The notes beneath the pieces were generated by a model. The model worked only from the letters and a program-made list of their open reading frames with translations. It was not told where the DNA came from and searched no databases. A stretch of 61,188 nt of DNA, from positions 1-61,188 of the forward strand of contig CALWVN010000010.1 of assembly GCA_944384995.1 (NCBI GenBank). The letters run 5' to 3'. The position numbers were made by a program, and so were the translations under genes. Positions within the stretch are counted from its first letter, which is position 1. The number at the start of each line of letters is the position of its first letter. Below are positions 3,411-34,665 of this stretch, piece by piece. Origin of the DNA: an uncultured Clostridia bacterium. GTDB taxonomy: Bacteria; Bacillota; Clostridia; Oscillospirales; Acutalibacteraceae.

Positions 3411-5044
3411 TCCGCAAAACAAAGCTGACCGACTTCCGATTCTGCACGCAGGATGCGCCAAAGCCGCGCGCCGTCACCGTGCCGCACACCTGGAATGTGG
3501 ACGACGGCTTGGAGGAATATGTTGGTTCGGCGCGGTACAGCGCGGAAATTGATGTGCCGTCGCCCGCATGGAAAACCGTTTTGCGTTTTCAGGCGGTGTA
3601 CCACACCTGCACGGTGTTCCTAAACGGGCAAAAGGCGGGCGAGCACCGCGGCAGCGGCTATACGCCGTTTTTGATCGATGTAACGCCGTTTGTGCAAACG
3701 GGGCGAAATCACTTGGAAGTGCTTTGCGAAAACACCTATACCGCGCAGTCCCTCCCGCACAAAAAGGATTTTGACTGGGCGTGCGACGGTGGCATTCTGC
3801 GCCCCGTGGAATGGATGGAATACGACGAAAACTGCGCGCGAAGCTGCCGCATCACCGGCGCGGTAACGGAATTTTTGCAAGACGGCCGCTGCCGTGCGGA
3901 GGTGTCCTGCGACATCCGGCTGTGGGAAAACGAGCCGAAGCCGTACCGGTTGCAGGTCACGGATGCTTTGGGCGAGACGGTACATACACAAGAGGGGACG
4001 CTTGACGAAAACAAGCTTCGCTTTTCCCTTGAAAATGCCGCGCTGTGGTCGCCCGAGCATCCGGCGCTTTACACCCTGCGGCTGTTCTTGGGGAACGAGG
4101 AACAAAGCTATCGATTCTGCCTGCGCAAGATCGAGACGCGCGGCGACAAAATTTATTTAAACGGCCGTCCGCTCAAACTCATCGGCGTGGAATGGATGCC
4201 CGGCAGCAACCCGAAATACGGCATGGCGGAACCGGAAAGCGAGCAGGAAAAGTTCCTTTCGATGCTCAAAGACTTAAACTGCAATTTCACGCGTTTTCAC
4301 TGGCAGCAATCGGATTTCACCCTCGACTGGTGCGACGAACACGGTATCCTTGTGCAGGAGGAGATCCCTTATTGGGGTTCCCCAAAGGCGGCGGGGGAGG
4401 CGCAAACCGAGATCGCGAAGCGGCAGGCGGACGATATGCTCGAATTCCATTACAACCACCCCTCGATCGTCTGCTGGGGCGTGGGCAACGAGCTCGGCGG
4501 GCACAAAAAGGCGACCATCGCCTATGTCCGTGAAATGTATCGCTATTTTAAGGCGGGCGACCCCATGCGGCTGGTCAATTACGTGTCCAATACCATGGCG
4601 CATCCGCGCATGCTGTTTTCCGGCGAGGTCGATGCAGACGCAACGGCAAGCGGCGACATCTGCATGTGGAACGAATACTTAGGCACTTGGATGCCCTCGA
4701 AAAACTATGAACGGGATATGCGCCGCGCCCTGTCGCGCGCCGAGGGCAAGCCGCTGGTCATTACCGAATTCGGGCTGTGCGAGCCTGCGCATAAAGGCGG
4801 GGACCCGCGCCGCATCGAGATATACAAGGAAAAGACCGCGCTGTATGAAAAGCTCGATTTCGCAGGCTGGGTGTATTTCTGCCTCAACGACTACCGCACG
4901 CACATCGGCGAAAGCGGCAGCGGGAAACACAAACAGCGCATCCACGGTTCGGTGGATTTAGAGGGCGTCAAAAAGCCCTCGTATGACTTTGTCAAGGCAC
5001 ATAACGCGTATTGGCAGACAAAGCAAAAGGAGGAAGAGGCATGA
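3407..5044 (+). CDS. Glycoside hydrolase family 2 (beta-galactosidase/glucuronidase type), cytoplasmic
   Basis: A 545-residue GH2 enzyme with the usual order: N-terminal jelly-roll sugar-binding domain (to ~170), immunoglobulin-like domain (~170-245) and TIM barrel (~250-545). The acid/base glutamate is E362 in GVGNELGG and the nucleophile is E454 in VITEFGL. At 545 residues it is short for the family and ends with the barrel, lacking the extra C-terminal domains of LacZ-type enzymes. It has no signal peptide. GH2 enzymes release beta-linked galactose, glucuronic acid or mannose with retention; the exact sugar cannot be read from sequence. GGGGGA precedes the start, which overlaps the previous stop; its own stop overlaps the next start in the same way, so translation is probably coupled. 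Confidence 0.88.
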   Translation: MIRKTKLTDFRFCTQDAPKPRAVTVPHTWNVDDGLEEYVGSARYSAEIDVPSPAWKTVLRFQAVYHTCTVFLNGQKAGEHRGSGYTPFLIDVTPFVQTGRNHLEVLCENTYTAQSLPHKKDFDWACDGGILRPVEWMEYDENCARSCRITGAVTEFLQDGRCRAEVSCDIRLWENEPKPYRLQVTDALGETVHTQEGTLDENKLRFSLENAALWSPEHPALYTLRLFLGNEEQSYRFCLRKIETRGDKIYLNGRPLKLIGVEWMPGSNPKYGMAEPESEQEKFLSMLKDLNCNFTRFHWQQSDFTLDWCDEHGILVQEEIPYWGSPKAAGEAQTEIAKRQADDMLEFHYNHPSIVCWGVGNELGGHKKATIAYVREMYRYFKAGDPMRLVNYVSNTMAHPRMLFSGEVDADATASGDICMWNEYLGTWMPSKNYERDMRRALSRAEGKPLVITEFGLCEPAHKGGDPRRIEIYKEKTALYEKLDFAGWVYFCLNDYRTHIGESGSGKHKQRIHGSVDLEGVKKPSYDFVKAHNAYWQTKQKEEEA

Positions 5045-6096
5045 AACGGTTCTTTCGGAAAAAATGGGTGAAGGTCGTCTTAAGTCTCGTGCTGGTATTC
5101 TTTACGATCGTTGCCGTGTGCAACGCCGTATTTGCCTCTGTGGCGCTGCAAGAGCAAAAGGGCGTCGCTGTTTGCGACGACTGGTCGCCGGAGGATACCT
5201 ATACCGCCGATTACGCGCAGAGCATCGACGCGGGCGACGGCGAATTCAAAATTTTGTGCATCACGGATGTGCACATCCGCAACCACGGCACGTTTGCGGC
5301 GTGGCTCGGCATCAACTTTATTTTAGACGGTATGAGCCGCCCGCAGTTAAAGGGCTTGATTGAGGAAGTGCAGCCCGATCTGATCGTCGTGGGCGGCGAT
5401 ACGGTGCTGACGGCGTGGAACGACATCTGTACGCAGCAGTTTGCCGATTTTATGGACGGCTTCGGCATCCCCTGGGCGCCGATCTTCGGCAACCACGACT
5501 ACGAGGGCAGGGCGGATAAGGCGAAACTCGCCGAGATCTACGAGGCGGCGGAGTATTGCCTTTTTAAAAGCGGCCCGGCGGGCATGAACGGCATGGGCAA
5601 CTACATTGTCAACATCACACGCGGCGGCACGCCCGTTTACTCTCTGTTCCTGTTTGACGACGGGCAGTACCGTATCACGGACGGCGAGATCACCGCCGGC
5701 GGTATCGGAGAAAACCAGATCGCGTGGTACGAATGGGCGGTGCGCGGCATCGCGGAAACGGCGGGTGCTACGGTGCCCAATATGGCGTTTATGCACGTGC
5801 CTGTCCCCGAATATGCAACGATTGAAAGCGGCTTTGCCATGGGCGACCGCCGCGAGGGCACGTCCACGGCCGTGGTCAACGACGGCTTTTTCGATTCGTT
5901 TAAAGCGAACGGCGGCACGCACATGTTCGCCGGCCACGACCACAACAACAACTTTATCACCGAGCATGAGGGCGTCACGCTCGGCTACATGACGAAGAGC
6001 TCTTATAACTGCTATTTCGATTTTGACGCGCTCGGCGGCACGGTACTCACAATTGATGCGGAAAACAATGTGACAACAGAGATCGTACCCTTCTAA
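5041..6096 (+). CDS. Membrane-anchored metallophosphoesterase (first of two in the operon)
   Basis: A calcineurin-like phosphoesterase of 351 residues. A basic start (MKRFFRKKWVK) followed by one hydrophobic stretch (~12-33) forms a signal anchor, so the catalytic domain should face outwards. All metal-binding blocks are present: DVHIRNH (DxH), GGDTV (GD), GNHDYEG (GNHD), a single histidine in MHVPVPEY and GHDHNNN (GHxH). The family includes purple acid phosphatase/Dcr2-like enzymes acting on phosphomonoesters or diesters. I chose the ATG at 5041 because AAAGGAGGAAG lies directly upstream; an in-frame TTG at 5011 is inside the GH2 gene. Placement inside a glycosidase operon suggests a phosphorylated glycan or released phosphosugar as substrate, but that is inference. 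A paralogue is encoded at 17755. Confidence 0.85.
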   Translation: MKRFFRKKWVKVVLSLVLVFFTIVAVCNAVFASVALQEQKGVAVCDDWSPEDTYTADYAQSIDAGDGEFKILCITDVHIRNHGTFAAWLGINFILDGMSRPQLKGLIEEVQPDLIVVGGDTVLTAWNDICTQQFADFMDGFGIPWAPIFGNHDYEGRADKAKLAEIYEAAEYCLFKSGPAGMNGMGNYIVNITRGGTPVYSLFLFDDGQYRITDGEITAGGIGENQIAWYEWAVRGIAETAGATVPNMAFMHVPVPEYATIESGFAMGDRREGTSTAVVNDGFFDSFKANGGTHMFAGHDHNNNFITEHEGVTLGYMTKSSYNCYFDFDALGGTVLTIDAENNVTTEIVPF

Positions 6097-6124
6097 AGAA
6101 ACCTATACGGAAAGAAGTTTTGCT

Positions 6125-7330
6125 TTGAAAACATTCGGAACCTATTTTCAAAACAGTGCGGAACACCCGCTTTGCTACGGCGAGGTGGAGCTCATCAACC
6201 CGCCGCGCCGCCGCAGGCGCGGCGAGCCGGAAAAGATCGGTGTGGAAGCGTACCCCGTATTCTGCGGGTTCTGCGGCACAGACATGGAGCTGTACCGCAT
6301 GGGAAAAGCCTGCGCGCTCGACGCAAAATTCCCCGCAGGGCAGAAAAGGCTCGTCAACGGGCACGAGGGCGTGGTGTGGGTACCGTCGGAAAACCGTTTC
6401 GCGATCGTGCTTATCCGCGGCGGCGACAGCTTCGACCCCACGCGCTTTACCGAGGACGAAACTTATTTTGAATACGGCTGCGACGGTGCGGACGGTATTT
6501 TCTGTGACAGGGGGTATTTTAACCCCGATATGCTGCTGCACCTGCCCGCGCAATACGAGGGGATCCAAAAGCTGCCTTTATCGCTCGCGAAGCGGTTGGT
6601 GTTTTCCGACCCATACGCCTGCGCGGTGTTTCAGCACGAGCGCATGTGCGACATCGGCGAAGCCCAGCTGTTCCGCGTGGAGATGGCAAAACGCGGCTGT
6701 TCGGAACAAGAAGCGCGTGCTGCCGCCAAAGAAGCAACGTTTTGCCGCACGGTGATCTTCGGACTCGGCACGACGGGGCTGTTCATCGGCGACCAGATCC
6801 GCCGCAACCACCCGGAAGCGCAAATCCTGTTCGTCGCGCGCAGCGCCGTCGAGAGCGCAAAAGCGCGGTTCGCAACGCAAGAGCTCGGCGCGGATTACCT
6901 TTCGACGGAAGGACTTTCACAAACGCAGACCGCCGCCGCGATCACGGAGCGCTTGGGCGGCAGGGCGACGGTGTTCGTGGGCACCTCCGGGAATGAAACA
7001 GAGCACCGTATCGCGTTCGAGCACGGTGTTTTGGGCTGCAACGGCATTTACAACAGCTTCTCTCTGGGGCCGAAGATTACTTTTGACACCATGCCGTTCG
7101 GCTTCCAGAACCATGTGATCCTCGCGTCCATCAATTTTACGCAGAAGCACATGGAACAAGCGATCGAAATCCTGTGCGGCAGCCGATTTGACACTCTTGT
7201 ACAGCTTTTGGACAAGGCGGAATTCATTGCCGACCCCGCAAAAGCCTATGAAACGAAAATCTACTGCAAGGGCGCGCCGCTGAAAACAGCGGTCGTCTGG
7301 AACGAACAATACTTGGAGATGAACCGATAA
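6125..7330 (+). CDS. Zinc-dependent MDR dehydrogenase, glucose-dehydrogenase-like (candidate L-galactose 1-dehydrogenase)
   Basis: A 401-residue medium-chain dehydrogenase. The catalytic zinc region is visible as CGFCGTD and NGHEGVV; the nucleotide-binding turn is FGLGTTGLFIG near residue 220. The long insert between the catalytic ligands and the Rossmann fold, and the absence of the four-cysteine structural zinc lobe of the next gene, make it resemble archaeal-type glucose dehydrogenases that oxidise an aldose at C1 to a lactone. Start codon is TTG, with GGAAAG about ten bases upstream. It is followed after one base by a second MDR gene. In the proposed pathway it would convert L-galactose (or L-fucose) to the lactone hydrolysed by the product of the gene at 11048; substrate is inferred from context only. 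Confidence 0.75.
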   Translation: MKTFGTYFQNSAEHPLCYGEVELINPPRRRRRGEPEKIGVEAYPVFCGFCGTDMELYRMGKACALDAKFPAGQKRLVNGHEGVVWVPSENRFAIVLIRGGDSFDPTRFTEDETYFEYGCDGADGIFCDRGYFNPDMLLHLPAQYEGIQKLPLSLAKRLVFSDPYACAVFQHERMCDIGEAQLFRVEMAKRGCSEQEARAAAKEATFCRTVIFGLGTTGLFIGDQIRRNHPEAQILFVARSAVESAKARFATQELGADYLSTEGLSQTQTAAAITERLGGRATVFVGTSGNETEHRIAFEHGVLGCNGIYNSFSLGPKITFDTMPFGFQNHVILASINFTQKHMEQAIEILCGSRFDTLVQLLDKAEFIADPAKAYETKIYCKGAPLKTAVVWNEQYLEMNR

Positions 7331-7331
7331 T

Positions 7332-8360
7332 ATGCAAGCTATTGAGATCACAAAACCCGGCGAGATCCGTCTGGTCTCCCGCGAAAAGCCGGCCCCAAAG
7401 GCGGGCGAGGCGCTGTTGAAGGTGCTGTACTGCGGTATCTGCGGCGCGGATGTCGCCTCCTACACGGGCAACCAGCCATTCACGACCTATCCGCGCACGC
7501 CCGGCCACGAATTCAGTGCGCAGATCGTGGAGATCGGTGAAAATGACAGGGGGCTTCGCGTCGGCGACGTGGTCACCGCCAACCCGTATTTCAACTGCGG
7601 GCACTGCTATGCGTGCGCGCGCGGCATTGTGAACGCCTGCGTGGACAACCAAACCATGGGCGTCCAGCGCGACGGCGCGTTTCAGGAATATATCACCATG
7701 CCCGTCGAGCGCATCATCCCGGGGCGCGGTCTTTCGCCGAAGGCACTTGCGCTGATCGAACCGTTTTCCATCAGCTGCCACGCGCTTTCGCGTGCAGCAG
7801 TCCGCGAAGGCGACCGCGTGCTGATCATGGGCGCAGGCCCCATCGGGCTGTTCGCGCTGCTGCGGGCAAAATCGCTCGGCGCGCGCGTTGCCGTGGCGGA
7901 TCTGCTCGAAAGCCGCCTGGCACTTGCCGAAAGCTACGGCGCGGACTGTGTGGTCCCGGTCAAAACTGCCGATCTGCACGAGAAAAGCCTTGCATTTACC
8001 GAGGGCAACGGATACGATGTGTGCGTCGAAGCGTGCGGCGCGCCCGAGACCTTCCTTTCCTGCATCAATGAAGCGGCGCACGGGGCGAACATTATTTTGA
8101 TCGGCAACGGCAAGCGCGAGACGACCTTCGTGCACTCCGTTCTGCTGAAAAAAGAACTGAATGTATTCGGCAGCCGCAACGCGCTTACCGCAGATTTTGA
8201 GACCCTGATCGATCTGGTCGCCTCGGGCGGGGCGGACGTGTTGAAAATGGTCAGCGCCGTTTACGAAAAAGAGAATGCGGCAGCGGCGTTCGAGGCGCTT
8301 ACACACAACGACGGTTCGCTTGCCAAGGTGCTGCTGCGCTTTGCGGATGCGGAGGCATAA
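7332..8360 (+). CDS. Zinc-dependent MDR dehydrogenase, L-galactonate/threonine dehydrogenase-like
   Basis: A 342-residue classical MDR protein. Catalytic zinc ligands are in CGICGAD and PGHEFS; the structural zinc lobe is NCGHCYACARGIVNAC with four cysteines; the Rossmann turn is GAGPIGLFALLRAKSLG. This layout matches the sorbitol/threonine dehydrogenase group that includes E. coli LgoD, which oxidises L-galactonate at C5 to D-tagaturonate. The next gene is tagaturonate reductase, making that reaction a good fit. It starts two bases after the preceding stop and is followed one base after its own stop by uxaB, so co-translation is likely. Other polyol or sugar-acid substrates cannot be excluded from sequence alone. 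Confidence 0.8.
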   Translation: MQAIEITKPGEIRLVSREKPAPKAGEALLKVLYCGICGADVASYTGNQPFTTYPRTPGHEFSAQIVEIGENDRGLRVGDVVTANPYFNCGHCYACARGIVNACVDNQTMGVQRDGAFQEYITMPVERIIPGRGLSPKALALIEPFSISCHALSRAAVREGDRVLIMGAGPIGLFALLRAKSLGARVAVADLLESRLALAESYGADCVVPVKTADLHEKSLAFTEGNGYDVCVEACGAPETFLSCINEAAHGANIILIGNGKRETTFVHSVLLKKELNVFGSRNALTADFETLIDLVASGGADVLKMVSAVYEKENAAAAFEALTHNDGSLAKVLLRFADAEA

Positions 8361-8361
8361 T

Positions 8362-9687
8362 ATGAAAGAAACCATTATCCAATTCGGCGAGGGGAATTTT
8401 CTGCGCGGCTTTGTGGATCTGTTCATCCATAAGCTGAACGAGCAGGGGCTGTATGACGGCAAGGTCGTGGTGGTGCAGCCCATTAAAACCGGGCTTTGCG
8501 ACGTACTGAATGAACAAAACGGCGTATATAACCTGTATCTGCGCGGACTTCAAAACGGCGAAGCGGTGTGCGAGCACACGCGCGTCACCTCGATTTCCCG
8601 CGCCGTAAACCCGTATGCGGACTTTGAGGGCTTTTTGGCGCTTGCAAAAAATCCCGATTTCCGCTTTGTCATTTCCAACACCACCGAGGCGGGCATTGCC
8701 TTTGACCCGTCGTGTGCGTTATCCGATACTCCCGCGAGTTCATTCCCGGGCAAGCTCACGCAGCTTTTGTATGCGCGCTTTCAGGCGGGGCTGCCGGGCT
8801 TTGTGATGCTCGCGTGCGAGCTGATCGACGATAACGGTAAGGAATTGCAATCCTGCGTGCTGCGGTACGCGCAGCAGTGGAAGCTCGGTGAAGCGTTTTA
8901 CGAATGGGTTATTCGCGAGAACAACTTTTGCAGCACGCTCGTGGACCGCATCGTGACGGGCTACCCGAAAGCGGAAGCGGCTGCACTTTGCAAAGAACTC
9001 GGATGGGAGGACCGCCTTTTGGACACGGCGGAGCCCTACCATCTGTGGGTCATTGAGGGCGACTGTGAATCGGAGCTGCCTTTGCGGCGAGCGGGCGTCA
9101 ACGTGGTTTGGACAAACGACGTAAGCCCCTATAAAAAGCGCAAGGTGCGCGTGCTCAACGGCGCGCATACCGCAATGGTGTTCCCCGCGCTTTTGTGCGG
9201 GCTTAAGACCGTGGGCGAAGCACTCCGGGATGAACAGGTCAGCGCATTTTTAAATGAAGCCCTGTTTTCTTACATCTTACCCGCGCTCGGCGACACCGAG
9301 GACAACCGCGCGTTTGCGCATGATGTGCTGGAACGCTTTCGCAACCCGTATATTCAGCATCAGCTGCGTTCCATCGCGCTCAATTCCGTCAGCAAATTTT
9401 CGGTGCGCGTGCTGCCGACGATGCTCGACTGCCGCGAAAAGGACGGCGCATTCCCGCGCCCGCTTATATTGTCCCTTGCCGCGCTGTTATATTTTTACAA
9501 AACCGATGCGCCGCAGGACGATGCGGCGGCGATCACCTGCATCAAAGAGCGGACGCTGCCCGAGATCCTCGGGGATACCGCGCTTTGGGGGACAGACTTG
9601 ATCGAGCTTGCTCCTGAAGTCTCAAAAGGCATGGAGATCATCGAAAAACAGGGAATGCGTGAGGCGATCACATGGGCTTTGTCGTAA
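8362..9687 (+). CDS. uxaB: Tagaturonate reductase (mannitol dehydrogenase family)
   Basis: A 441-residue polyol/mannonate dehydrogenase family protein that starts IIQFGEGNFLRGFVD, the N-terminal nucleotide-binding signature of UxaB. The family active-site block KVRVLNGAHTAM (Lys, Asn, His) lies near residue 260. UxaB reduces D-tagaturonate to D-altronate with NADH (EC 1.1.1.58). I place the start at ATG 8362, one base after the previous stop, rather than the longer in-frame reading from 8275 that runs inside the MDR gene. It overlaps the altronate dehydratase gene by 16 bases, which itself is strong evidence that both act in sequence. Uronate isomerase (uxaC) is not nearby, so tagaturonate probably comes from L-galactonate rather than from galacturonate. 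Confidence 0.9.
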   Translation: MKETIIQFGEGNFLRGFVDLFIHKLNEQGLYDGKVVVVQPIKTGLCDVLNEQNGVYNLYLRGLQNGEAVCEHTRVTSISRAVNPYADFEGFLALAKNPDFRFVISNTTEAGIAFDPSCALSDTPASSFPGKLTQLLYARFQAGLPGFVMLACELIDDNGKELQSCVLRYAQQWKLGEAFYEWVIRENNFCSTLVDRIVTGYPKAEAAALCKELGWEDRLLDTAEPYHLWVIEGDCESELPLRRAGVNVVWTNDVSPYKKRKVRVLNGAHTAMVFPALLCGLKTVGEALRDEQVSAFLNEALFSYILPALGDTEDNRAFAHDVLERFRNPYIQHQLRSIALNSVSKFSVRVLPTMLDCREKDGAFPRPLILSLAALLYFYKTDAPQDDAAAITCIKERTLPEILGDTALWGTDLIELAPEVSKGMEIIEKQGMREAITWALS

Positions 9688-11051
9688 TCCACCCTGCCGA
9701 CAATGTGCAGGTTTCTTTGGAAAACGGGCATAAATACGCGCGGCGTGCAATCGGGGCGGGCGAAGCGGTCATCAAATACGGCTTTCCCATAGGCGTGGCG
9801 ACGCAGGACATTGCGGCGGGCGCGCATGTGCACAGCCACAACCTGAAAACCGCACTCGGCGGCGTGCGGGAATACACCTATGCGCCGAAATCCTGCGCGC
9901 TCCCAGCCGTACCGCCTGAGGAGATCTCCGCTTATGAGCGTCCGAACGGCGAGATCGGTATCCGCAACGATATTTGGATCGTCAACACCGTTGGCTGTGT
10001 CAACAAGACCGCGCAGGCGATCGCGGAAAAAACAGGCGCGTTCTGTTTTCCGCATCCATACGGGTGCAGCCAGCTTGGCGGCGATCTTCTGCGCACGCAG
10101 CAGATCCTTTGCGGGCTCATCCGCCACCCCAATGCGGGCGGCGTGCTGGTGCTGGGGCTTGGGTGTGAGAACAACAACATCGGCGAGCTTCAAAAGGTGC
10201 TGGGCGATTACGACCGCGCCCGCGTCCGCTTTTTGAATGTGCAGGACTGCGGCGACGAGATCGGGGAGAGCGTGCGGCTGGTTTGTGATCTGCAAAGCCG
10301 AGCCGCCAAAGACCGCCGTGTGCGCGTACCCGTCTCCCGCTTGAAGATCGGCTTGAAATGCGGGGGCAGCGACGGGCTTTCGGGCTTGACCGCGAACCCC
10401 ACGGTCGGCCGCGTCTGCGACCGCCTTTGCGCCATGGGCGGCACGGCGGTGCTCACCGAGGTGCCGGAGATGTTCGGCGCAGAGCAGCTTTTGATGAACC
10501 GCTGCCAAAGCGCCGAGGTGTTCGAACAGACCGTGCGGCTCATCAACCGCCAAAAGGCGCTTTTCCTCGCGCACGGGGAAAAGGTGAGCGAAAACCCGTC
10601 GCCGGGGAACAAGGCGGGCGGCATCACGACGCTCGAAGAAAAATCCCTCGGCTGCGTACAAAAGGGCGGCACGTCGCCCGTCACGGCAGTGCTTGAGATC
10701 GGCGATACGGCGACCGCAGCGGGGCTTAACTTGCTGGAGGGCCCCGGAAACGACATGGTTGCGGTCACAAATCTCACGGCGGCGGGCTGCCATATGATTT
10801 TGTTTACAACGGGACGCGGTACGCCGCTGGGCGCGCCCGTGCCGACTATAAAAATCGCTACGAACGCAGCGTTGGCACAGCAAAAGCCGCATTGGGTGGA
10901 TTTTGACGCGCAGCCTGCGCTGACGGACGCGGACGGCACGGCGGACGCGCTTTTCTCCCTGGTGTTGGAAACGGCGAACGGCGCGAAGACCAAATCGGAG
11001 CAGAACGGCTTTCGGGAAATTGCCATTATGAAAGACGGGGTGACCTTATGA
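9672..11051 (+). CDS. uxaA: Altronate dehydratase (SAF domain fused to dehydratase)
   Basis: A 459-residue UxaA-type dehydratase. Residues 1-75 are a SAF domain; the catalytic part begins at the conserved YERPNGEIGIRN stretch (~85-97) and ends with TGRGTPLG-PVPTIKIATN, both typical of altronate/galactarate dehydratases. It removes water from D-altronate to give 2-keto-3-deoxy-D-gluconate (EC 4.2.1.7), needing Fe2+ or Mn2+. The length and order (SAF at the N terminus, fused) are normal for the family. It overlaps uxaB upstream and the amidohydrolase downstream (ATGA at 11048-11051). KDG kinase and KDPG aldolase, needed next, are not in this window and must be encoded elsewhere. Confidence 0.92.
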   Translation: MGFVVIHPADNVQVSLENGHKYARRAIGAGEAVIKYGFPIGVATQDIAAGAHVHSHNLKTALGGVREYTYAPKSCALPAVPPEEISAYERPNGEIGIRNDIWIVNTVGCVNKTAQAIAEKTGAFCFPHPYGCSQLGGDLLRTQQILCGLIRHPNAGGVLVLGLGCENNNIGELQKVLGDYDRARVRFLNVQDCGDEIGESVRLVCDLQSRAAKDRRVRVPVSRLKIGLKCGGSDGLSGLTANPTVGRVCDRLCAMGGTAVLTEVPEMFGAEQLLMNRCQSAEVFEQTVRLINRQKALFLAHGEKVSENPSPGNKAGGITTLEEKSLGCVQKGGTSPVTAVLEIGDTATAAGLNLLEGPGNDMVAVTNLTAAGCHMILFTTGRGTPLGAPVPTIKIATNAALAQQKPHWVDFDAQPALTDADGTADALFSLVLETANGAKTKSEQNGFREIAIMKDGVTL

Positions 11052-11923
11052 CGGTGGTGGATGCGCACGCGCATTTATGGGAACGGCAAAACGGGCGCGT
11101 GGACGGCAGACCCGTTAAGCCTTTAGAAAACGGCAAAAGTGATTTCGGTGGGGAAACCCGGCAGATGATGCCGCCCTACATGACCGACGGCGCAAACACC
11201 GCAGAGCGCCTGATTGCGAACATGGATTACGCCCGCGTTTCAGCGGCGGTCATCACGCAGGAGGAGATCGACGGCAACCAGGACGATTACCTGCTGTGTG
11301 CAAAGCAAAAGTACCCCGATCGGCTGAAGATTTGCAGCCTGTATGAGGAGGGCAAGCCCTTCCGGCTCGAGGGCTTTGACGGTGTAAAATTATGTGCCGG
11401 CAGGCTGAAAACACAGGATCTCACAAAGCATGCCGCCGTGTTTGAAGCGGCGCAAGCGGCGGGGAAGTTTATTTCCATCGACCTTGCCGACGGCGACCGC
11501 CAAACGGGCGCGCTCAAAGAGCTCGCCGCGCAGTACCCGATGCTGCGCATTGCCGTCGGGCATTTCGGCATGGTCACACGCGACGGCTGGCACGAGCAGA
11601 TCAAGCTTGCGCGGCATCGGAATATTTACATCGAAAGCGGCGGCATCACCTGGCTTTTCAACCGTGAGTTTTACCCTTACCCGTCGGCGGTGCGCGCCGT
11701 TCGCGAAGCGGCAGAGCTTTGCGGCATGGAAAAGCTGATGTGGGGCAGCGACTATCCGCGCACCATGGTGGAGATCACCTATAAAATGAGCTATGATTTC
11801 ATTCTGAAATCCGATGCGCTGACCGACGAAGAAAAAGCGCGGTTCCTTTATCAAAACGCGCAGGTATTTTACGGATTCGAATCGCTCACACCTTGCCCGA
11901 ATATCCCGAATATGCTCGACTGA
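11048..11923 (+). CDS. Amidohydrolase-2 family sugar lactonase (COG3618 type)
   Basis: A 291-residue TIM-barrel amidohydrolase. Metal and catalytic positions are visible: HAHLW at residues 6-10, VGHFGM in the middle, and WGSDYPRTM with the catalytic aspartate near residue 237. The COG3618 group contains lactonases for L-fucono-, L-rhamnono- and L-galactono-lactones. Placed between altronate dehydratase and glycosidases, it is the natural enzyme to open the lactone made by the glucose-dehydrogenase-like MDR protein. It begins inside the uxaA stop (ATGA) with GGGGTGA as ribosome site. A decarboxylase-like member of the same superfamily is the main alternative, less likely given context. Confidence 0.82.
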   Translation: MTVVDAHAHLWERQNGRVDGRPVKPLENGKSDFGGETRQMMPPYMTDGANTAERLIANMDYARVSAAVITQEEIDGNQDDYLLCAKQKYPDRLKICSLYEEGKPFRLEGFDGVKLCAGRLKTQDLTKHAAVFEAAQAAGKFISIDLADGDRQTGALKELAAQYPMLRIAVGHFGMVTRDGWHEQIKLARHRNIYIESGGITWLFNREFYPYPSAVRAVREAAELCGMEKLMWGSDYPRTMVEITYKMSYDFILKSDALTDEEKARFLYQNAQVFYGFESLTPCPNIPNMLD

Positions 11924-11936
11924 CGGAGGAAACGAT

Positions 11937-13571
11937 ATGCAGGAGATCAAAGCAGCCGATTTCGGCGTTCTGCCGGGAAAAGATGTAACGCGCGAGGTCT
12001 CTGCCCTTTGCGCAGCACTTACCGATATCCCCGGGGAGAAAACCGTCCGCTTTGCAGCGGGAACATACCATTTGCGCAGTGACCTTTGCGAAACGCACAG
12101 GCTTGTCATCACCAATACCGTCGGCGATAAGGAGTTTTCACCTGATGAAACGCCGCATGAAAACGCCGTGCCGTTTTATCTGGAAAACATTGAAGACCTG
12201 ACGTTGGACTTCGGCTCGGCGGTATTTGTTATTGATGGCAAGGTAACGAATTTTGCCGCTGTCGGCTGTCGCAATTTGACGGTAAAAAATCTGGAGATCC
12301 GCCACAGCCGGCCCGACATGCACGAGCTTCGCGTGACGCGCGTCACGCCGATCTCCGTGGATTTTGAAGCCGACCGCGACACCGACCTGTATTTCAAGGG
12401 CGACACGCCGTATTTTCGCGGGCGCGATTACGACTACCCCGTCGCCAGAAATGCGGCGACGGCTTTCTGGATCGGGCGCATCCGCGCACGCACACCCGAC
12501 CGCCTTGCGCGTGTGCAGCATCCGCTGTGTGCCGCCGTTCGCACCAAAAGGCTCGGCGAACGGCGCTTCCGTGCATATTTCCCGAATACGTGGCGGTTTA
12601 AAAAGGGCGATCTGTATTATATCTTCGATGTGCGCCGCCAATTCGCGGGGATCTTCCTCGACCGCTGTGCAAACGTGCGGCTTGAAAACATCAAGCAGCG
12701 GTTCAATTATTCGCTGGCGCTCGTTGCGCAGGATTGCGAGAACATAGAAGCCGACCGTCTGGAATTCGCGCCTGAGGCGACGGATGCGCGCCGCATGGCG
12801 TCGGTTGCGGACTTTATCCAAATTTGCATGTGCCGCGGCGATGTGTGTATCACGAACAGTCTGTTTGACGGCGCGGGCGACGACTGCTTGAACGTCCACG
12901 GCATCCACTTTGCCGTGACCGAAAAGCAAGGCGACCGGCTTAAGGTGCGCTTTATGCACCCGCAGACGCACGGCTTTCTGCCGCTGCGTGCGGGGGATAC
13001 AATTGCGTTCATATCCCCGAAGACCCTGCTCGAATCGGGACGCACGCAGATCAAGTCCGCGCGGCTTTTGAACGAATACGAGATCGAACTGACCGTTTCG
13101 GACGCGGCGGGGGTCGAGGTCGGCTGTGTGATCGAAGATGTGGATGCCTGTCCGAATGTGGTCTTTGCGAACAATACACTCAACCGCATCATCACCCGCG
13201 GGCTGCTTTTGACCACGCGCGGGAAAGTGCTTGTGGAAAACAATCGGTTTGTGAGCACCACCATGAGTGGAATTCTGCTTTCGGATGACGCGAAAAGCTG
13301 GTATGAAAGCGGCATGTGCTGCGACGTGACCGTACGCGGCAACACCTTTGCCTATTGCGGGCAGACGCCTGTGCGCATCCTGCCCGAAAACGCAGAGCAT
13401 GCGGACGCGGTGCACCGGCACATCCATATTTTATATAATCGGTTTGAATGGTATCGGGGCTTTTGCATCACGGCAAAGTCTACGGATGATCTGCGCGTGA
13501 TCGGCAACCGCTTTGTCAAAGGCAAACCGCTGAAAACCGTCCGATGCACCCATGTGCGCTTGGAAGACTGA
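11937..13571 (+). CDS. Right-handed beta-helix glycosidase, GH110-like (alpha-1,3-galactosidase)
   Basis: A 544-residue parallel beta-helix protein. The N terminus has the FGVLPGKDVT turn common to pectinase-fold enzymes, then repeated strand pattern (NLTVKNLEIR, NVRLENIKQRF, NRFVSTTMSGILLS). The central block DGAGDDCLNVHG, with adjacent aspartates D315 and D316, matches the acidic active-site loop of GH110 alpha-1,3-galactosidases, inverting enzymes that remove terminal alpha-galactose as in blood-group B structures. It lacks a signal peptide, unlike many GH110 proteins of Bacteroides, so it probably acts on imported oligosaccharides. GGAGG precedes the start by seven bases. The specific linkage or sugar (galactose versus L-galactose-like) is not provable here. 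Confidence 0.78.
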   Translation: MQEIKAADFGVLPGKDVTREVSALCAALTDIPGEKTVRFAAGTYHLRSDLCETHRLVITNTVGDKEFSPDETPHENAVPFYLENIEDLTLDFGSAVFVIDGKVTNFAAVGCRNLTVKNLEIRHSRPDMHELRVTRVTPISVDFEADRDTDLYFKGDTPYFRGRDYDYPVARNAATAFWIGRIRARTPDRLARVQHPLCAAVRTKRLGERRFRAYFPNTWRFKKGDLYYIFDVRRQFAGIFLDRCANVRLENIKQRFNYSLALVAQDCENIEADRLEFAPEATDARRMASVADFIQICMCRGDVCITNSLFDGAGDDCLNVHGIHFAVTEKQGDRLKVRFMHPQTHGFLPLRAGDTIAFISPKTLLESGRTQIKSARLLNEYEIELTVSDAAGVEVGCVIEDVDACPNVVFANNTLNRIITRGLLLTTRGKVLVENNRFVSTTMSGILLSDDAKSWYESGMCCDVTVRGNTFAYCGQTPVRILPENAEHADAVHRHIHILYNRFEWYRGFCITAKSTDDLRVIGNRFVKGKPLKTVRCTHVRLED

Positions 13572-13605
13572 CTGTTTATCTTCCCTGTTGTAAAGGAGAG
13601 TTCCT

Positions 13606-15525
13606 ATGCCGAGATTGGAAACGAAACGCTACCGCTGCAGTGCCTTTGGGCGTCCCTGCGACTTCCCCGCGCTTTCGGCGGAAAGGCAGCCGCACCGCTT
13701 GAAATCGACCATTGCGGATTACGAGGGGCTGTTCATCGACTACGGGTACCGGGAGACCTCGTACCCGTATACCCAGCAAAACGACTATACCGAAGAAGCG
13801 GAACGCGACGTACCCGTTGCCGTGCTGGAAAACGAGCATCTTTACGCGGAATTCCTGCCGACGCTCGGCGGCAGGCTTTGGCGGCTGTTTGACAAAAAAC
13901 GGCAAAAAGATGTGCTGTATACCAACGATGTCATCCGCTTTCGGAACCTGAGCGTGCGCAACGCGTGGTTTTCGGGCGGGGTGGAATGGAACTGCGGCGT
14001 CATCGGGCACAGTCCGTTCACCTGCTCACAGATGTACTGCGCCGCCGTCACGGGCAAAAACGGCGAGGATGTTTTGCGCTTTTACGAGTTTGAACGTGTG
14101 CGCGGCATCTATTATCAGATGGATTTTTGGCTGGAAGAAGACCGCCTTATGGTGGCTGTGCGCATCGAAAATCCAAACGAGCAGGTCGTGCCGATGTATT
14201 GGTGGTCGAATATGGCGACGCCCGAATACAAAGGCGGGCGGGTCGCCGTGCCCGCTGCGAGCGCTTACAACAATTCCGACGGCATGGGCATTAAAAAATC
14301 CGCGATCCCCTATGACGGCGGCAGGGATGTTTCCTATCCCGAAAACATCCCCGATACGATCGATTACTTTTATGACATCGCCCCGCAAAGCGACAAATTT
14401 ATTGTGAATGCGGACGCACAGGGGCTTGGGCTTTTGCAGTTTTCCTCGAATCATCTCAAGGGCAGAAAGCTCTTTTCCTGGGGGCACCGCAAGGGCTCGC
14501 ACCATTGGCAGCGGATGCTGACAGACGGTGCGGGCGATTATGTGGAAATTCAGTCGGGACTCGGCAAGACGCAGTATGAATGCCTGCCCATGCCGCCGAA
14601 AACCACATGGGCGTTTCTGGAGTGCTATACACTTAGCAATCTCGGTGCGGCGGCGATGCGGGACAATTACGATGCGCTTGTGGCGGCGGCAGAAAAACAG
14701 GTGCGGTCACTCGGCGGCTCGGCTGGGATGGACAGCCGCCTGCCGGACGTCCTGCGGGACATCAGCCTGCAAACGGGGGAATTGCTGCTTGCGGGCAGCG
14801 GCTGGGGCGCGCTCGAACAGCAGCTCGGCGGGAAAGCCCCCGCGCATTTGGAGTTCTGCACGGACGATGACATGACCCCGTGGATGGAGCTGCTTTCCAA
14901 AAAGCCTTTGTCCGCGCCGCTGTCCTTTGCTTACGGCGCGCGGCAGGAGGCGTTGCTTTTAGAAAACGCCGATCTTTGCGAATGGAGCGTGCCGTATCAG
15001 CTCGGGCTTTTGTGCTATGACCGCCGCGAATTTGAAAAAGCGAAGGATTGGTGCGAAAAGAGCCTGCTGCTCGACAGCAACCCGAAAAACCTGCATCTGT
15101 ATGCGTTTGTTCTGTATCAACTCAGGGATGCACGGTTCGCCTATTTTGTGCGCAAAGCCCTGCTGCAAAATCCGAACGACTACGGGCTTTGCGAAAGCTT
15201 GTTTTCCCTCCTGCTGCGCGCCGAAGATTATGCGTCGCTGATCGAAAGCTTTCCGAAGCTTTCCGAAGCCTTACAGAAAAATGCGCGCCTTTGCATGTAT
15301 CTGGCGGTCGCTTATCTTGGCGCGGGCGACGCCCGGCGCGCCGAAGAAATTTTGCTTTCCGACGGCGGCTTGCAGCTTCGGGATTACCGTGAGGGTGACC
15401 GTATGCTGGATACGCTTTATCGCGGCATCCGCAAAGCGCTGTACCGCGAGACGGACGCGCAGATCGCCGTGCCCGAGCAGTTTGATTTTATCGTAGCGGA
15501 TTTCGGAGGAGAAAAGGATGGATAA
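13606..15525 (+). CDS. DUF5107 domain protein with short C-terminal TPR region
   Basis: A 639-residue relative of the first gene of the operon. DUF5107 covers ~60-360, with the hallmark NAWFSGGVEWNCG near residue 125 in place of the ISGGIEFNWPQ of the longer paralogue. The C-terminal ~200 residues carry a few TPR-like repeats (LLCYDRREFEKAKDWCEKSL). No signal peptide. AAAGGAG precedes the ATG. Its 3' end overlaps the GH95 gene by eight bases. Two DUF5107-TPR proteins in one operon suggests each pairs with a different glycosidase or linkage; function remains unknown. Confidence 0.82.
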   Translation: MPRLETKRYRCSAFGRPCDFPALSAERQPHRLKSTIADYEGLFIDYGYRETSYPYTQQNDYTEEAERDVPVAVLENEHLYAEFLPTLGGRLWRLFDKKRQKDVLYTNDVIRFRNLSVRNAWFSGGVEWNCGVIGHSPFTCSQMYCAAVTGKNGEDVLRFYEFERVRGIYYQMDFWLEEDRLMVAVRIENPNEQVVPMYWWSNMATPEYKGGRVAVPAASAYNNSDGMGIKKSAIPYDGGRDVSYPENIPDTIDYFYDIAPQSDKFIVNADAQGLGLLQFSSNHLKGRKLFSWGHRKGSHHWQRMLTDGAGDYVEIQSGLGKTQYECLPMPPKTTWAFLECYTLSNLGAAAMRDNYDALVAAAEKQVRSLGGSAGMDSRLPDVLRDISLQTGELLLAGSGWGALEQQLGGKAPAHLEFCTDDDMTPWMELLSKKPLSAPLSFAYGARQEALLLENADLCEWSVPYQLGLLCYDRREFEKAKDWCEKSLLLDSNPKNLHLYAFVLYQLRDARFAYFVRKALLQNPNDYGLCESLFSLLLRAEDYASLIESFPKLSEALQKNARLCMYLAVAYLGAGDARRAEEILLSDGGLQLRDYREGDRMLDTLYRGIRKALYRETDAQIAVPEQFDFIVADFGGEKDG

Positions 15526-17755
15526 GCTTTGGTACACGACCCCTGCCAAACGCTGGCGTGAGGCGCTGCCTTTGGGCAACGGCTTTATGGGGGTGATGGT
15601 CTTCGGCGGCAAGCGGACGGAGAAGCTCTGTTTTAACGACGGTACGCTTTGGTCGGGCTATCCGAAGGATTACAACAGCGAAAAAAGCGCAAAAGCGCTC
15701 GGGCGGGTGCGCGAGCTGATCTTCCAAGGCAAAAACAGCGAAGCCGACGCGCTCTGCGAAACGGAGATGTGCGGGAATTACAGCGAGGCGTTCATGCCGC
15801 TGGGGAATGTGTATCTGCGGCTGCACGGGGTGTCGGCGCGCGGCTACAGGCGGGAATTGTCGCTCGCAAAAGGCCTTTGCACGGTGCAGACCGCAGGCCT
15901 ATGCCGTGAGACGTTTTGCTCGAATCCCGACCGTGTCGCCGTGTACCGCATTACCGCCGACAAGCCGTTTTCTCTGACCGTAACGGCGGACAGCAAGCTG
16001 CACTTCTCGTGCAGCAGTGAAGAAAACGCGCTGGTGCTCACAGGCAGCGCGCCCGACTACGCCGCGCCGAATTACCTGCGCACAAAGCCCCATCCGATCC
16101 GATACGACGAAAACAAGGGCATGGCGTTCTGTCTGCGCACCGAGGTCGAGACGGACGGACATGTCGTAGGCGGGTGCGGGAAATTAAAGGTGCGCGGCGC
16201 AAAAACAGTGACGCTTTTCTTCGCGACGGCGACAGGTTTCTTGGGCTTCGACAAAATGCCCGACACCTCCCGCGTAAACGCCGCCGCTGCGTGCAAGGCG
16301 CATCTTCGGAGCATACAGCACGACTATACAGCGCTTTATGCGCGCCACACGGCGGATTTCGGCGCGCTGTATAACCGTGCGCGGGTCTCCCTTGGCGCTG
16401 AAAGCGAGCTTCCGACCGATAAACTGCTGAAAGCCGTTCAAAAAAACACGGATGCGCGCACCTTTGCCGCGCTTTGCGAGCTGTTCTATAATTTCGGCAA
16501 GTACATGATCGTCAGCGGTTCGCGCAAGGGCGGGCAGGCGCTGAATTTACAGGGGATTTGGAATGAATCGGTGCGCCCGCCGTGGAGCAGCAACTACACG
16601 GTCAACATCAACACGCAGATGAATTATTGGGGCGCGTCGCGCGCGGGACTTTGCGAATGTGTGGAGCCGCTTTTGCAGCTCGTATATGAAACGGTGCAGA
16701 ACGGCAAAAAAACCGCGCAGGTCAACTATGGCTGCCGCGGCTTTGCGTGCAACCACAATGTAGACCTGTGGCGCAAAACGCCGCCCGTGCAGCGTGATCC
16801 GAGCTATATGTTCGCACCGCTCTGCGGCGTGTGGCTTGCAAACGAAGTATATGCGCACTACCGCAACGGCGCTTTGCAGGATGAAACCGACAAGGTCAAA
16901 ACCATCACGGCCTCGGCGGCGCAGTTTGCAGCGGACTTTCTCGTTTTGCATGACGGCTGTTATGTGACCTGCCCGTCGTCCTCGCCCGAAAACACGTTCC
17001 GAAAGAACGGTGCGCGCTGCCGGCTCGATTACGCTTCGGCATTCGACATGGGGCTTGTGCGCCAGAGCTTTCAAAACTACCGTGAGCTTTTCGCGGGCGA
17101 GGATACGGAACTTTTACGCGAGATTATGGAAAAAGAGCCGAAGCTGTATCCGTTCCGTGCGGGGAAAAACGGCATTTGCGAATGGCACACGGAGTATGAA
17201 ACGCCCGAGCCCGGACATCGGCATTTTTCGCCGCTGTATGCGTTTTATCCCGGCAACAGCATCGGCTATGATGCAGATCCCGAACAGCGCGGCTGGGTCG
17301 AACAGCTGTTCCGGCACCGGCTTGCCCATTCCGGGCAGCACATCGGCTGGTCGGCGGCGTGGGCGATCTGTCTTTCCGGCAGGCTGCGCGACGGCAAAAC
17401 CGCGCAAAAGGTCATTTGCGATCTGCTTTGCCATGCGGTATTCCGCAATCTGTTTTGTGTGCATCCGCCGTTTTTGTTCCAGATTGACGGCAATCTCGGC
17501 TTTGTGGCGGGCATACACGAGCTGCTTTTGCAGGAGGAGGCGGGTGTGCTGACGCTTCTCCCCGCGCTGCCCGAAAGCTTTGCTGCAAGCGGGCAGGTGA
17601 CGAACCTTTTGGGGTGCGGCGCGAAGCTCAGCTTTTCCTGGCGCGACGGCAAGGTAACGGCGGTGTCCGGTGACCGGCCCGTTACGGTTTTACGCCGCAA
17701 TCTGGCGCAGAACGTAAAAATCGGTGAAAATGTGGTCGTAAAGGAGATTTCATAA
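15518..17755 (+). CDS. Glycoside hydrolase family 95 (alpha-L-fucosidase / alpha-L-galactosidase)
   Basis: A 745-residue cytoplasmic GH95 enzyme. The start WYTTPAKRWREALPLGNG is the typical N-terminal block. Family motifs follow in order: NINTQMNYWGAS (substrate-binding asparagines), HNVDLW, GICEWHTEYE with the general acid E555, HRHFSPLYAFYPG, and FQIDGNLGFVAGIHELLL with D657. GH95 inverts alpha-1,2-linked L-fucose and in several members L-galactose, which differs only at C6. Because the same operon has a full L-galactonate-to-KDG route and no fucose isomerase, kinase or aldolase, alpha-L-galactosidase activity is the better prediction. NYWGAS differs from the more usual NYWPAE. It has GGAGG before the start and shares one base with the next ATG. 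Confidence 0.9.
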   Translation: MDKLWYTTPAKRWREALPLGNGFMGVMVFGGKRTEKLCFNDGTLWSGYPKDYNSEKSAKALGRVRELIFQGKNSEADALCETEMCGNYSEAFMPLGNVYLRLHGVSARGYRRELSLAKGLCTVQTAGLCRETFCSNPDRVAVYRITADKPFSLTVTADSKLHFSCSSEENALVLTGSAPDYAAPNYLRTKPHPIRYDENKGMAFCLRTEVETDGHVVGGCGKLKVRGAKTVTLFFATATGFLGFDKMPDTSRVNAAAACKAHLRSIQHDYTALYARHTADFGALYNRARVSLGAESELPTDKLLKAVQKNTDARTFAALCELFYNFGKYMIVSGSRKGGQALNLQGIWNESVRPPWSSNYTVNINTQMNYWGASRAGLCECVEPLLQLVYETVQNGKKTAQVNYGCRGFACNHNVDLWRKTPPVQRDPSYMFAPLCGVWLANEVYAHYRNGALQDETDKVKTITASAAQFAADFLVLHDGCYVTCPSSSPENTFRKNGARCRLDYASAFDMGLVRQSFQNYRELFAGEDTELLREIMEKEPKLYPFRAGKNGICEWHTEYETPEPGHRHFSPLYAFYPGNSIGYDADPEQRGWVEQLFRHRLAHSGQHIGWSAAWAICLSGRLRDGKTAQKVICDLLCHAVFRNLFCVHPPFLFQIDGNLGFVAGIHELLLQEEAGVLTLLPALPESFAASGQVTNLLGCGAKLSFSWRDGKVTAVSGDRPVTVLRRNLAQNVKIGENVVVKEIS

Positions 17756-18807
17756 TGAAAAAGGGATGGAAAGTGTTTTTAAGCATTTTGTTGGTTTGTG
17801 CGCTGCTCGGCGGCATTGCGGCGTCCGTTGTGACCTTTTACGGCAAAACCTATGTGCGTGCGGCAGATACGGCGTTTACGGTTTTACAGATCACGGACGT
17901 ACACATCCTTAATAATGAGAAAAAAGACGCCAAGGCGTTCAAGACCATCACCGCCATGGTCGAGGCGACTGCGCCCGACATGATCGTCGTCACGGGCGAT
18001 ATCACCAGCGAAAAAGAGAATTTCACGGCGTTCAAGACGTTCGGCAGCTTTATGGAATCCCTGCAAATTCCGTGGGCGTTCGTCTACGGCAACCACGAGG
18101 GGCTGGATATCCAATATGAACCCGGTGAGGTGCTCGACCCTGAAAAGATCGCCGACAAGCAGACGCTCAACGATTATCTGAGCTCTTTGGAATACTGCAT
18201 TTATGAACGCGGCGATGAAAATGTAGACGGCATGGGCAACTATTATTACAACGCTACCGACGAAAACGGCAAGGTGCTTATGTCGCTCATTATGATGGAC
18301 AGCAATTCGTATTATCCGGACGAATCCGTGGGCGGCTATGACTGCTTCCACGAAAATCAGATCACATGGTATGAAAACACCGTGAAATCCATTGCGCGCG
18401 AGGTCAACGGCGACGAAACGAAGGTCGTGCCGTCGCTTGCGTTCTTCCATATCCCGATGCGGGAATTCGTCACCGCCTATGACGAAGCAAAGGGCACGGA
18501 CAAACTGCTTGCGGGCAGACGCTTTGAGGGTTCGGGCTGTTCAAATGTGGATGACGAAATGTTCGAGACCATGGTGGAGCTCGGCAGTACCAAGGGCGTG
18601 TTCGTCGGGCACGACCACATGAACAACTATTCTGTGGAATACCAAGGCATCCGCCTTTCTTACGGACTTTCGTGCGACCACAACATCTATGTGGTGCCGT
18701 TCCGCGGCGGGAACCTCATCAACATCAAAGAAGACGGTACCTTCACCCAGCAGCGGCTGATCCGCCACCGTGGGCAGAGCACCGTCACGATCGGCAAGGA
18801 ATTCTAA
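17755..18807 (+). CDS. Membrane-anchored metallophosphoesterase (second in the operon)
   Basis: A 350-residue paralogue of the phosphoesterase at 5041. An N-terminal anchor (MKKGWK then a hydrophobic stretch to ~24) is followed by the catalytic domain with DVHILNN, TGDITSE, GNHEGLD, FFHIPMREF and GHDHMNN. The only deviation from its paralogue is GNHE for GNHD, common in this subfamily. Start codon overlaps the GH95 stop by one base and has AAAGGAG upstream. It is the last gene of the operon and is followed eight bases later by a strong terminator. With its paralogue it is one of only two products of the operon predicted to lie outside the cytoplasm. Confidence 0.85.
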   Translation: MKKGWKVFLSILLVCALLGGIAASVVTFYGKTYVRAADTAFTVLQITDVHILNNEKKDAKAFKTITAMVEATAPDMIVVTGDITSEKENFTAFKTFGSFMESLQIPWAFVYGNHEGLDIQYEPGEVLDPEKIADKQTLNDYLSSLEYCIYERGDENVDGMGNYYYNATDENGKVLMSLIMMDSNSYYPDESVGGYDCFHENQITWYENTVKSIAREVNGDETKVVPSLAFFHIPMREFVTAYDEAKGTDKLLAGRRFEGSGCSNVDDEMFETMVELGSTKGVFVGHDHMNNYSVEYQGIRLSYGLSCDHNIYVVPFRGGNLINIKEDGTFTQQRLIRHRGQSTVTIGKEF

Positions 18808-34662: not shown

Positions 34663-34665
34663 AAG

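Follow-up and report, generated by a model that had tools for sequence, protein, structure and literature searches.

A candidate oxidative L-galactose cluster with its own glycosidases and an MDR-type first enzyme in an uncultured Clostridia bacterium

Among the closest described systems is lguABCDE of Luteolibacter LG18, a dual L-glucose/L-galactose pathway of the same chemistry as that proposed here, established with enzymes and gene disruptions and comprising an aldose dehydrogenase, the L-galactonate dehydrogenase LguD, the tagaturonate reductase LguC, the altronate dehydratase LguB and the KDPG aldolase LguE (PMC12632266, in the part available). The paper nowhere uses the word lactonase, whereas our cluster has a proposed one, and it places the aldolase inside the cluster with no glycosidase among the named genes, whereas here the aldolase lies elsewhere and glycosidases are joined to the locus; LguA, moreover, belongs to another L-galactose dehydrogenase group, unlike the first enzyme of our cluster (MDR1). 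An L-galactose pathway of Bacteroides (Phocaeicola) vulgatus (BVU_0219/BVU_0222) is cited in the same accessible text, which places BVU_0219 in one group with LguA and the L-galactose dehydrogenase of plants (PMC12632266). The L-galactonate pathway of Escherichia coli (LgoD, UxaB, UxaA) is chemically identical from L-galactonate on, but in K-12 the 20 kb around lgoT-lgoR-lgoD carry no annotated uxa gene, aldose dehydrogenase or lactonase. The B. vulgatus pathway, reportedly described by Hobbs in 2014, is said to include a COG3618 lactonase; it differs from our cluster in belonging to another phylum and in that glycosidases are joined here. We take BVU_0219, the plant enzyme and LguA to be aldo-keto reductases, as are, to our knowledge, all L-galactose dehydrogenases known so far, whereas the first step here would fall to an MDR enzyme.

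The window, by which we mean the whole 61,188-nucleotide stretch analysed, contains a plus-strand run of twelve genes (168-18807) that overlap or almost touch, with junctions ranging from a 16-base overlap to a 34-base gap (Table 1). Every gene that the first-pass annotation had placed in one plus-strand operon at 6125-17755 is present there, overlapping or nearly abutting its neighbours, but the cluster is longer than had been described, with further genes before (168-6096), inside (13606-15525) and after (17755-18807) the named set; MDR1, the LgoD-like MDR, UxaB, UxaA and the amidohydrolase account for 6125-11923. Pfam/NCBIfam profiles gave no match to a transporter family among all twelve genes, and a search on DUF5107 returned nothing useful. 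The two phosphoesterases group in one sequence cluster, and by eye the first has a hydrophobic N-terminus; in 12 of 80 relatives MDR1 is preceded, at a distance of no more than 400 bases, by a phosphoesterase homologue.

Table 1. Genes of the plus-strand cluster, with proposed functions where given.
Feature	Position	Strand	Basis
DUF5107-TPR protein	168..3410	+	PF17128; in same gene run; function unknown
GH2 glycosidase	3407..5044	+	PF02836, PF02837, PF00703
Calcineurin-like phosphoesterase	5041..6096	+	PF00149
MDR1, proposed L-galactose 1-dehydrogenase (zinc MDR)	6125..7330	+	TTG start; Glu_dehyd_C below cut-off; fold
LgoD-like zinc MDR, proposed L-galactonate 5-dehydrogenase giving D-tagaturonate	7332..8360	+	LgoD identity; NF007489 below cut-off
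UxaB, D-tagaturonate reductase	8356..9687	+	NF002969
UxaA, D-altronate dehydratase	9672..11051	+	SAF + GD_AH_second + GD_AH_C
Amidohydrolase, proposed L-galactono-lactonase	11048..11923	+	PF04909; COG3618-like fold
GH110-type alpha-1,3-galactosidase	11937..13571	+	PF23764; PDB 8yk3
Second DUF5107-TPR protein, inside cluster	13606..15525	+	PF17128; function unknown
GH95, proposed alpha-L-galactosidase	15518..17755	+	PF22124; PDB matches
Second calcineurin-like phosphoesterase, last gene	17755..18807	+	NCBIfam phosphoesterase matches below cut-off

We read the cluster, with a probability of roughly 0.78, as a route from L-galactose through its lactone, L-galactonate, D-tagaturonate and D-altronate to KDG, and the gene content fits each step. 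The computation establishes the genes and their order, the families to which UxaB, UxaA, GH95 and GH110 belong, the fold class of MDR1 and of the lactonase, and the conserved linkage; substrates and reaction directions, which we infer, would be as follows. GH95 would release terminal alpha-L-galactose from a glycan fragment taken up by the cell, and GH110 and GH2 would remove neighbouring D-sugars; MDR1 would convert L-galactose into the lactone by oxidation at C1, ring opening by the amidohydrolase would give L-galactonate, and the LgoD-like MDR would oxidise C5 to give D-tagaturonate, which UxaB would reduce to D-altronate and UxaA in turn dehydrate to KDG. A search for kdgK and kdgA elsewhere in the genome, as the first-pass annotation had suggested, did find a PfkB kinase, predicted to be a KDG kinase, and a PF01081 (KDPG) aldolase on contig C6; from KDG these two together may yield pyruvate and glyceraldehyde 3-phosphate.

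UxaB falls clearly with the tagaturonate reductases and not with the fructuronate type (543.5 bits on NF002969, cut-off 359, versus 91 bits), and UxaA has the SAF, GD_AH_second and GD_AH_C domain set of D-altronate dehydratase, scoring 214.7 bits on the galactarate dehydratase model (cut-off 730.85). Both the LgoD-like MDR and the amidohydrolase fall under NCBIfam equivalog cut-offs: the former, 36.5% identical to E. coli LgoD (337 aa) and 34.2% to E. coli RspB (345 columns), reaches 207.9 bits on its best model, NF007489 (cut-off 376), and the latter 17.4 bits on the L-fucono-1,5-lactonase model NF052480 (cut-off 400). With the AF2 model of the amidohydrolase (pLDDT 86.1), Foldseek ranked 4i6k first, 4dlf second and 4do7 fifth, and since the last two are titled COG3618 its fold is close to that group. 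Judged by eye from the residues past the second beta strand, the LgoD-like enzyme would use NAD and MDR1 probably NADP.

MDR1 is an MDR by fold and not of the aldo-keto reductase type, a family to which no operon gene has a Pfam/NCBIfam match. Its sole Pfam match is Glu_dehyd_C, at 22 bits (under the cut-off of 34.9), and in a profile search at 1e-5 it had no match to the zinc glucose dehydrogenases. The nearest folds are nonetheless of that kind (PDB 3wid, 2b5w, 2cdb; identity 15-18%, TM about 0.6, sequence-search E 0.042 or worse): with the AF2 model (pLDDT 87.6), glucose dehydrogenases made up the top 8 of the 50 Foldseek matches listed, at TM 0.59-0.65 by query length, and MDR1 resembles the archaeal enzymes of this kind. 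Residues C50, H80 and E81 are invariant in all 44 aligned sequences. Because the L-galactose dehydrogenases that we know of are aldo-keto reductases, MDR1 would be a non-homologous replacement. In our best reading, then, the first enzyme and the lineage are new, while the pathway and the order of its chemical steps are already known from other bacteria; titles and abstract openings of the openly licensed literature yielded neither an MDR L-galactose dehydrogenase nor such a route in Clostridia.

MDR1 could instead act on another aldose (L-glucose, L-gulose or D-galactose), with D-tagaturonate or D-fructuronate reached by other stereochemistry; its fold neighbours are glucose dehydrogenases, the LgoD-like protein is almost as near RspB as LgoD, GH110 would release D-galactose, and LguA and LguD of Luteolibacter also take L-glucose and L-gluconate (PMC12632266, accessible part). 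We think this very unlikely, given the tagaturonate type of UxaB, the absence of a Pfam/NCBIfam match to any D-galactonate dehydratase family in the operon, and the L-galactosidase-like character of the GH29 enzymes adjoining MDR1 in the two relatives searched (see below).

Conservation was assessed by tblastn in 80 related loci and by gene counts in 39 genomes of the genus, the triad being MDR1, the LgoD-like MDR and the lactonase. MDR1 and the lactonase occur in an identical set of 17 of the 39 genomes. The order MDR1-LgoD-(UxaB-UxaA)-lactonase is kept in 66 of the 80 relatives, with contig ends cutting 8 others; as the full five-gene core is in order in 37 loci and MDR1-LgoD-lactonase without it in 29 more, the arrangement is not due to chance. 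UxaA is found in 13/17 triad genomes versus 3/22 others (Fisher p=0.00018) and UxaB in 14/17 versus 3/22 (p=0.00002), and fucI in 13/17 versus 14/22 (p=0.49), the genomes in each comparison not being independent. The shared distribution of MDR1 and the lactonase and the association of UxaA and UxaB with them, together with the upstream GH29 genes and the separate location of fucI described below, support the earlier proposal that the operon frees L-galactose and carries it to KDG with an MDR enzyme first.

The whole genome gave a single match for UxaA and a single one for UxaB, so these two could also serve D-galacturonate. That they do so, with a remote uxaC and with the MDR genes as unrelated passengers, is a reading that we regard as highly improbable: a uxaC does exist, on contig C2, with the other galacturonate-route genes not beside it, and a UxaB homologue adjoins UxaC in two genomes (G026 and G033), but a UxaC query matched none of the 80 loci, the core order with MDR1, LgoD and the lactonase is retained as stated above, and UxaA is associated with the triad. 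We also considered, and rejected, a galacturonate operon truncated at base 1. In the two closest relatives, L022 (whose MDR1 is about 95% identical to that of the window) and L023, what lies upstream is not uxaC but a divergently oriented regulator gene of the AraC type, so that the uxaC and galacturonate transporter named at the outset as evidence to the contrary are not seen there, as far as the DNA is visible. The statement that uronate isomerase and the classical fucose genes are missing holds for the window but not for the genome, which has, besides uxaC, a fucose group on contig C4 (fucI, then an FGGY kinase and a class II aldolase).

The L-galactose route does not account for every genome carrying the triad. 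Four of the 17 (G022, G023, G026 and G029) gave no match to UxaA, UxuA or the PF01081 (KdgA) aldolase. The search thus revealed no KDG end of the route in these four, where the product must have some other fate. The tagaturonate epimerase UxaE was discarded as a rescue, being present in one of 39 genomes, G029, where it explains little because UxuA and KdgA are also without match. In the 28 triad loci lacking UxaA or UxaB, no neighbour family (ORFs of at least 120 aa) recurred in more than 3 loci. Also counting against the reading are the three of 22 genomes lacking MDR1 that carry both UxaA and UxaB, the equivalog scores of the LgoD-like enzyme and the lactonase, the absence of a Pfam/NCBIfam transporter match in the operon, and the 56 of 80 loci with neither GH95 nor GH29 in the DNA examined. 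We incline to the view that MDR1 represents a new, non-homologous L-galactose 1-dehydrogenase family restricted to one small gut Clostridia lineage, that MDR1, the lactonase and the LgoD-like enzyme form a free-standing cassette, and that its product D-tagaturonate passes onward by an unrecognised route in genomes without UxaA, UxuA and KdgA.

Of the glycosidases named in the first-pass annotation, GH95 alone could free L-galactose, whereas GH110 would be expected to release D-galactose. GH110 is a member of its family by sequence (PF23764, 52.5 bits, cut-off 28) and resembles PDB 8yk3 (E=3.5e-58), 8pvs, 9i4f and 7jw4. GH95 has the catalytic domain (PF22124, 392.7 bits), and its PDB matches are, in order, 2rdy, 8zbv, 7kmq and 4ufc, so that the scores on 8zbv, named an alpha-L-fucosidase, and on 7kmq, presumably the Xanthomonas fucosidase, exceed that on the L-galactosidase 4ufc. 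In the alignment with 7kmq, its TVNIN is opposite TININ, which we take to be T395, N397 and N399 of XacAfc95. We dropped this Thr as a decisive mark of L-galactose specificity, since XacAfc95 is a fucosidase and carries it too, and since the Thr is shown there not to settle specificity (PMC8245568, in the part available). We propose GH95 as an alpha-L-galactosidase, an alpha-L-fucosidase also being possible. By eye, neither GH95 nor GH110 has a signal peptide, which would make both cytoplasmic.

L-fucose is 6-deoxy-L-galactose, and it could follow a parallel course through L-fuconolactone, L-fuconate, 5-keto-L-fuconate, 6-deoxy-D-altronate and a 2-keto-3,6-dideoxy acid to an aldolase split. 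Families GH95 and GH29 consist mostly of fucosidases, the loci of some relatives have GH110, GH35 and GH101-like genes nearby that recall blood-group or mucin glycans, and the unmatched KDG enzymes in four triad genomes would suit such a course. KDG kinase, however, requires the 6-OH that fucose lacks, and fucI lies on another contig in 13 of the 17 triad genomes, including that of the window with its accompanying kinase and aldolase. In four of the 80 loci, a GH29 gene directly adjoins MDR1 within 400 bases upstream (56 have neither GH95 nor GH29 in the DNA examined around each); two of the four, in L147 and L144, were searched, and these score 459.7 and 263.1 bits on the exo-alpha-L-galactosidase 7ljj, about twice the best other GH29 (216.1 and 143.0 bits). 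Their closest solved relative is thus BpGH29, the porphyran-locus exo-alpha-L-galactosidase (PDB 7ljj, 7snk; PMC12316285, in the part available), although GH29 stands beside MDR1 only in relatives and the window carries GH95 instead. The Luteolibacter enzyme LguA, which belongs to a different family and acts on L-galactose, is inactive on L-fucose (PMC12632266, accessible part). On this balance we consider L-fucose an unlikely substrate.

Besides corn xylan and porphyran, other plant wall polymers contain the rare mirror-image sugar L-galactose. Its presence has been reported in corn xylan (PMC4491172) and in porphyran (PMC12316285, accessible part). If the L-galactose reading is true, it would supply a named, testable set of enzymes for the use of this sugar by gut Clostridia, and the first oxidation would have a second evolutionary origin. 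The MDR1-LgoD-lactonase cassette would also flag genomes in which the genes searched for do not explain the fate of D-tagaturonate, and would serve as a marker predicting which uncultured species are able to use L-galactose.

The 12 consecutive + strand genes at 168-18807, which overlap by up to 16 bases or are separated by up to 34, enclose a five-gene metabolic core that would take L-galactose through its lactone to L-galactonate, D-tagaturonate, D-altronate and KDG; it is flanked by glycosidases of families GH2, GH110 and GH95, together with a pair each of DUF5107-TPR proteins and calcineurin-like phosphoesterases, and no transporter family was matched among the operon genes.

Metabolic core of the cluster in the window
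Gene	Position	Strand	Part
MDR1	6125-7330	+	metabolic core
LgoD-like MDR	7332-8360	+	metabolic core
UxaB	8356-9687	+	metabolic core
UxaA	9672-11051	+	metabolic core
amidohydrolase	11048-11923	+	metabolic core

By eye, the phosphoesterases (5041-6096 and 17755-18807) have hydrophobic N-termini, and homologues >45% identical were found at 16 of the 27 related loci that have GH95, GH29 or GH110, versus 1 of the 53 that do not. Outside the operon, a GH2 glycosidase adjoins an MFS_2 sugar transporter (32377-36156, - strand). Bases 1-58 recur as four copies, spaced by 95-97 bases, between an AraC-type gene and the operon in related locus L022 (3757-4101), and the contig break at the window start was probably caused by a tandem repeat.

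MDR1, the proposed L-galactose 1-dehydrogenase, matched no protein family above cut-off and no PDB profile at 1e-5. The first eight structural matches of its predicted model (pLDDT 87.6) are glucose dehydrogenases (TM 0.59-0.65, 15-18% identity), one with gluconolactone bound, and C50, H80 and E81, which from the known features of this family and a weak alignment we take to be the catalytic zinc ligands, are invariant in 44/44 aligned sequences. Elsewhere L-galactose is oxidised by aldo-keto reductases, namely BVU_0219, LguA and the L-galactose dehydrogenase of plants; step 1 here would instead fall to MDR1, which is of a different superfamily, and the first enzyme of the pathway is probably non-homologous to the known ones.

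Among the other core proteins, UxaB scored 543.5 bits on the tagaturonate reductase model (cut-off 359) and just 91 on that for fructuronate reductase, and UxaA has SAF, second and C-terminal altronate/galactarate dehydratase domains. The top NCBIfam model of the LgoD-like protein, NF007489, scored under cut-off, and the protein shares 36.5% identity with LgoD of E. coli and 34.2% with RspB, so that L-galactonate would be its favoured substrate. The amidohydrolase, the proposed L-galactono-lactonase, is nearest in its model (pLDDT 86.1) to 4i6k and the COG3618 amidohydrolases 4dlf and 4do7, and did not reach the fuconolactonase equivalog model.

The source genome (1.89 Mb, 86% complete), in which the window makes up the initial 61188 bases of contig C10, has one match apiece for UxaA and UxaB. 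The first-pass annotation had proposed seeking kdgK/kdgA elsewhere in it, and a PfkB kinase and KDPG aldolase were indeed found on contig C6, grouped with UxuA and an SDR; uxaC lies on C2 next to cohesin and dockerin proteins. Because C4 carries fucI, then an FGGY kinase and a class II aldolase, a separate L-fucose route probably exists in this genome.

MDR1 was found in 17 of 98 genomes (its own counted), all within the window's genus (39 genomes), and of these 39 the lactonase is present in those 17 and no others; in a class-wide sample of 391 genomes drawn evenly, only MDR1's own genome matched. A contig scan gave 307 relatives, of which we analysed the best 80 loci (67-95% identical; labelled Clostridia or similar, many as gut samples), a set that overlaps the 17 genomes. 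The order MDR1-LgoD-UxaB-UxaA-lactonase was seen in 37 of these best 80 and MDR1-LgoD-lactonase in 29; MDR1-LgoD-UxaB-lactonase and MDR1-LgoD-lactonase-UxaB-UxaA occurred once each, eight loci were interrupted by a contig end, and four (L071, L073, L077 and L124) were arranged otherwise. LgoD was matched in 77 of the 80 and the lactonase in 69; with enough DNA present, L071 and L077 have neither near MDR1 and L124 has no lactonase. A GH39-like gene lies immediately 3' of MDR1 in L071 (11190-12512) and L073 (6314-7648). In 28 loci the triad of MDR1, LgoD-like MDR and lactonase stands without a UxaA or UxaB match within the locus, and no neighbour family was seen in more than three of them.

In four triad genomes, G022, G023, G026 and G029 (95%, 88%, 90% and 98% complete; loci L032, L031, L034 and L036), UxaA, UxuA and the PF01081 aldolase all went unmatched; G026 has UxaB adjoining UxaC, and G029 is the one genome of the 39 that has UxaE. 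Each of another two triad genomes was short of one match, UxuA in G034 and PF01081 in G036 (68% complete). The KDG end of the route is therefore not universal among triad genomes, and where it is missing the genes searched for do not account for what becomes of the triad product. In L031 (10819-11817) and L032 (13361-14317) a Gfo/Idh/MocA oxidoreductase lies directly 3' of the lactonase, with a homologue on the opposite strand in L121, and a sulfatase lies close to the G029 triad on the opposite strand (L036 15744-17075). In some relatives, homologues of the nickel pincer cofactor genes larB, larC and larE, by Pfam matches to AIRC, Ni_insertion and QueC, occur near the triad in variable orientation (L024 12632-15294, L029 14531-17184, L034 3858-6557, L121, L142). 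UxaA of G006 (L028 7659-9016) is in two overlapping, frameshift-like match pieces.

As to the sugar, UxaA was present in 13 of 17 triad genomes versus 3 of the 22 others in the genus, UxaB in 14 of 17 versus 3 of 22, and fucI in 13 of 17 versus 14 of 22, associations for which the Fisher tests take no account of genome kinship. The glycosidases provide L-galactosidase evidence (GH29, GH95) that is independent of the pathway argument. GH95 or GH29 was matched in 24 of the best 80 loci, within the locus DNA examined, and four of the 80 carry a GH29 upstream of MDR1 at a distance within 400 bases. When two of these GH29 proteins, those of L147 and L144, were compared with the PDB, they scored 459.7 and 263.1 bits on the exo-alpha-L-galactosidase 7ljj, versus 216.1 and 143.0 on the top-scoring GH29 other than that enzyme. 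The structure 7snk, an alpha-L-fucosidase by its PDB label, shows the enzyme of 7ljj again, given in PMC12316285 as BpGH29, exo-alpha-L-galactosidase of a porphyran locus, and PMC4491172 describes release of L-galactose from corn xylan by the GH95 BACOVA_03438. The sequence of the window's GH95 does not discriminate between L-galactose and L-fucose, and the window's GH110 would release D-galactose rather than L-galactose.

The reaction order proposed here is the same as in B. vulgatus, from which it was already known as cited in PMC12632266, and in Luteolibacter LG18, where that paper describes its demonstration by enzymes and gene disruptions; the paper also places BVU_0219, LguA and the plant enzyme in one cluster of L-galactose dehydrogenases. 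The pathway itself is known, and what would be new here is a probable non-homologous first enzyme, a new lineage and the linkage to glycosidases.
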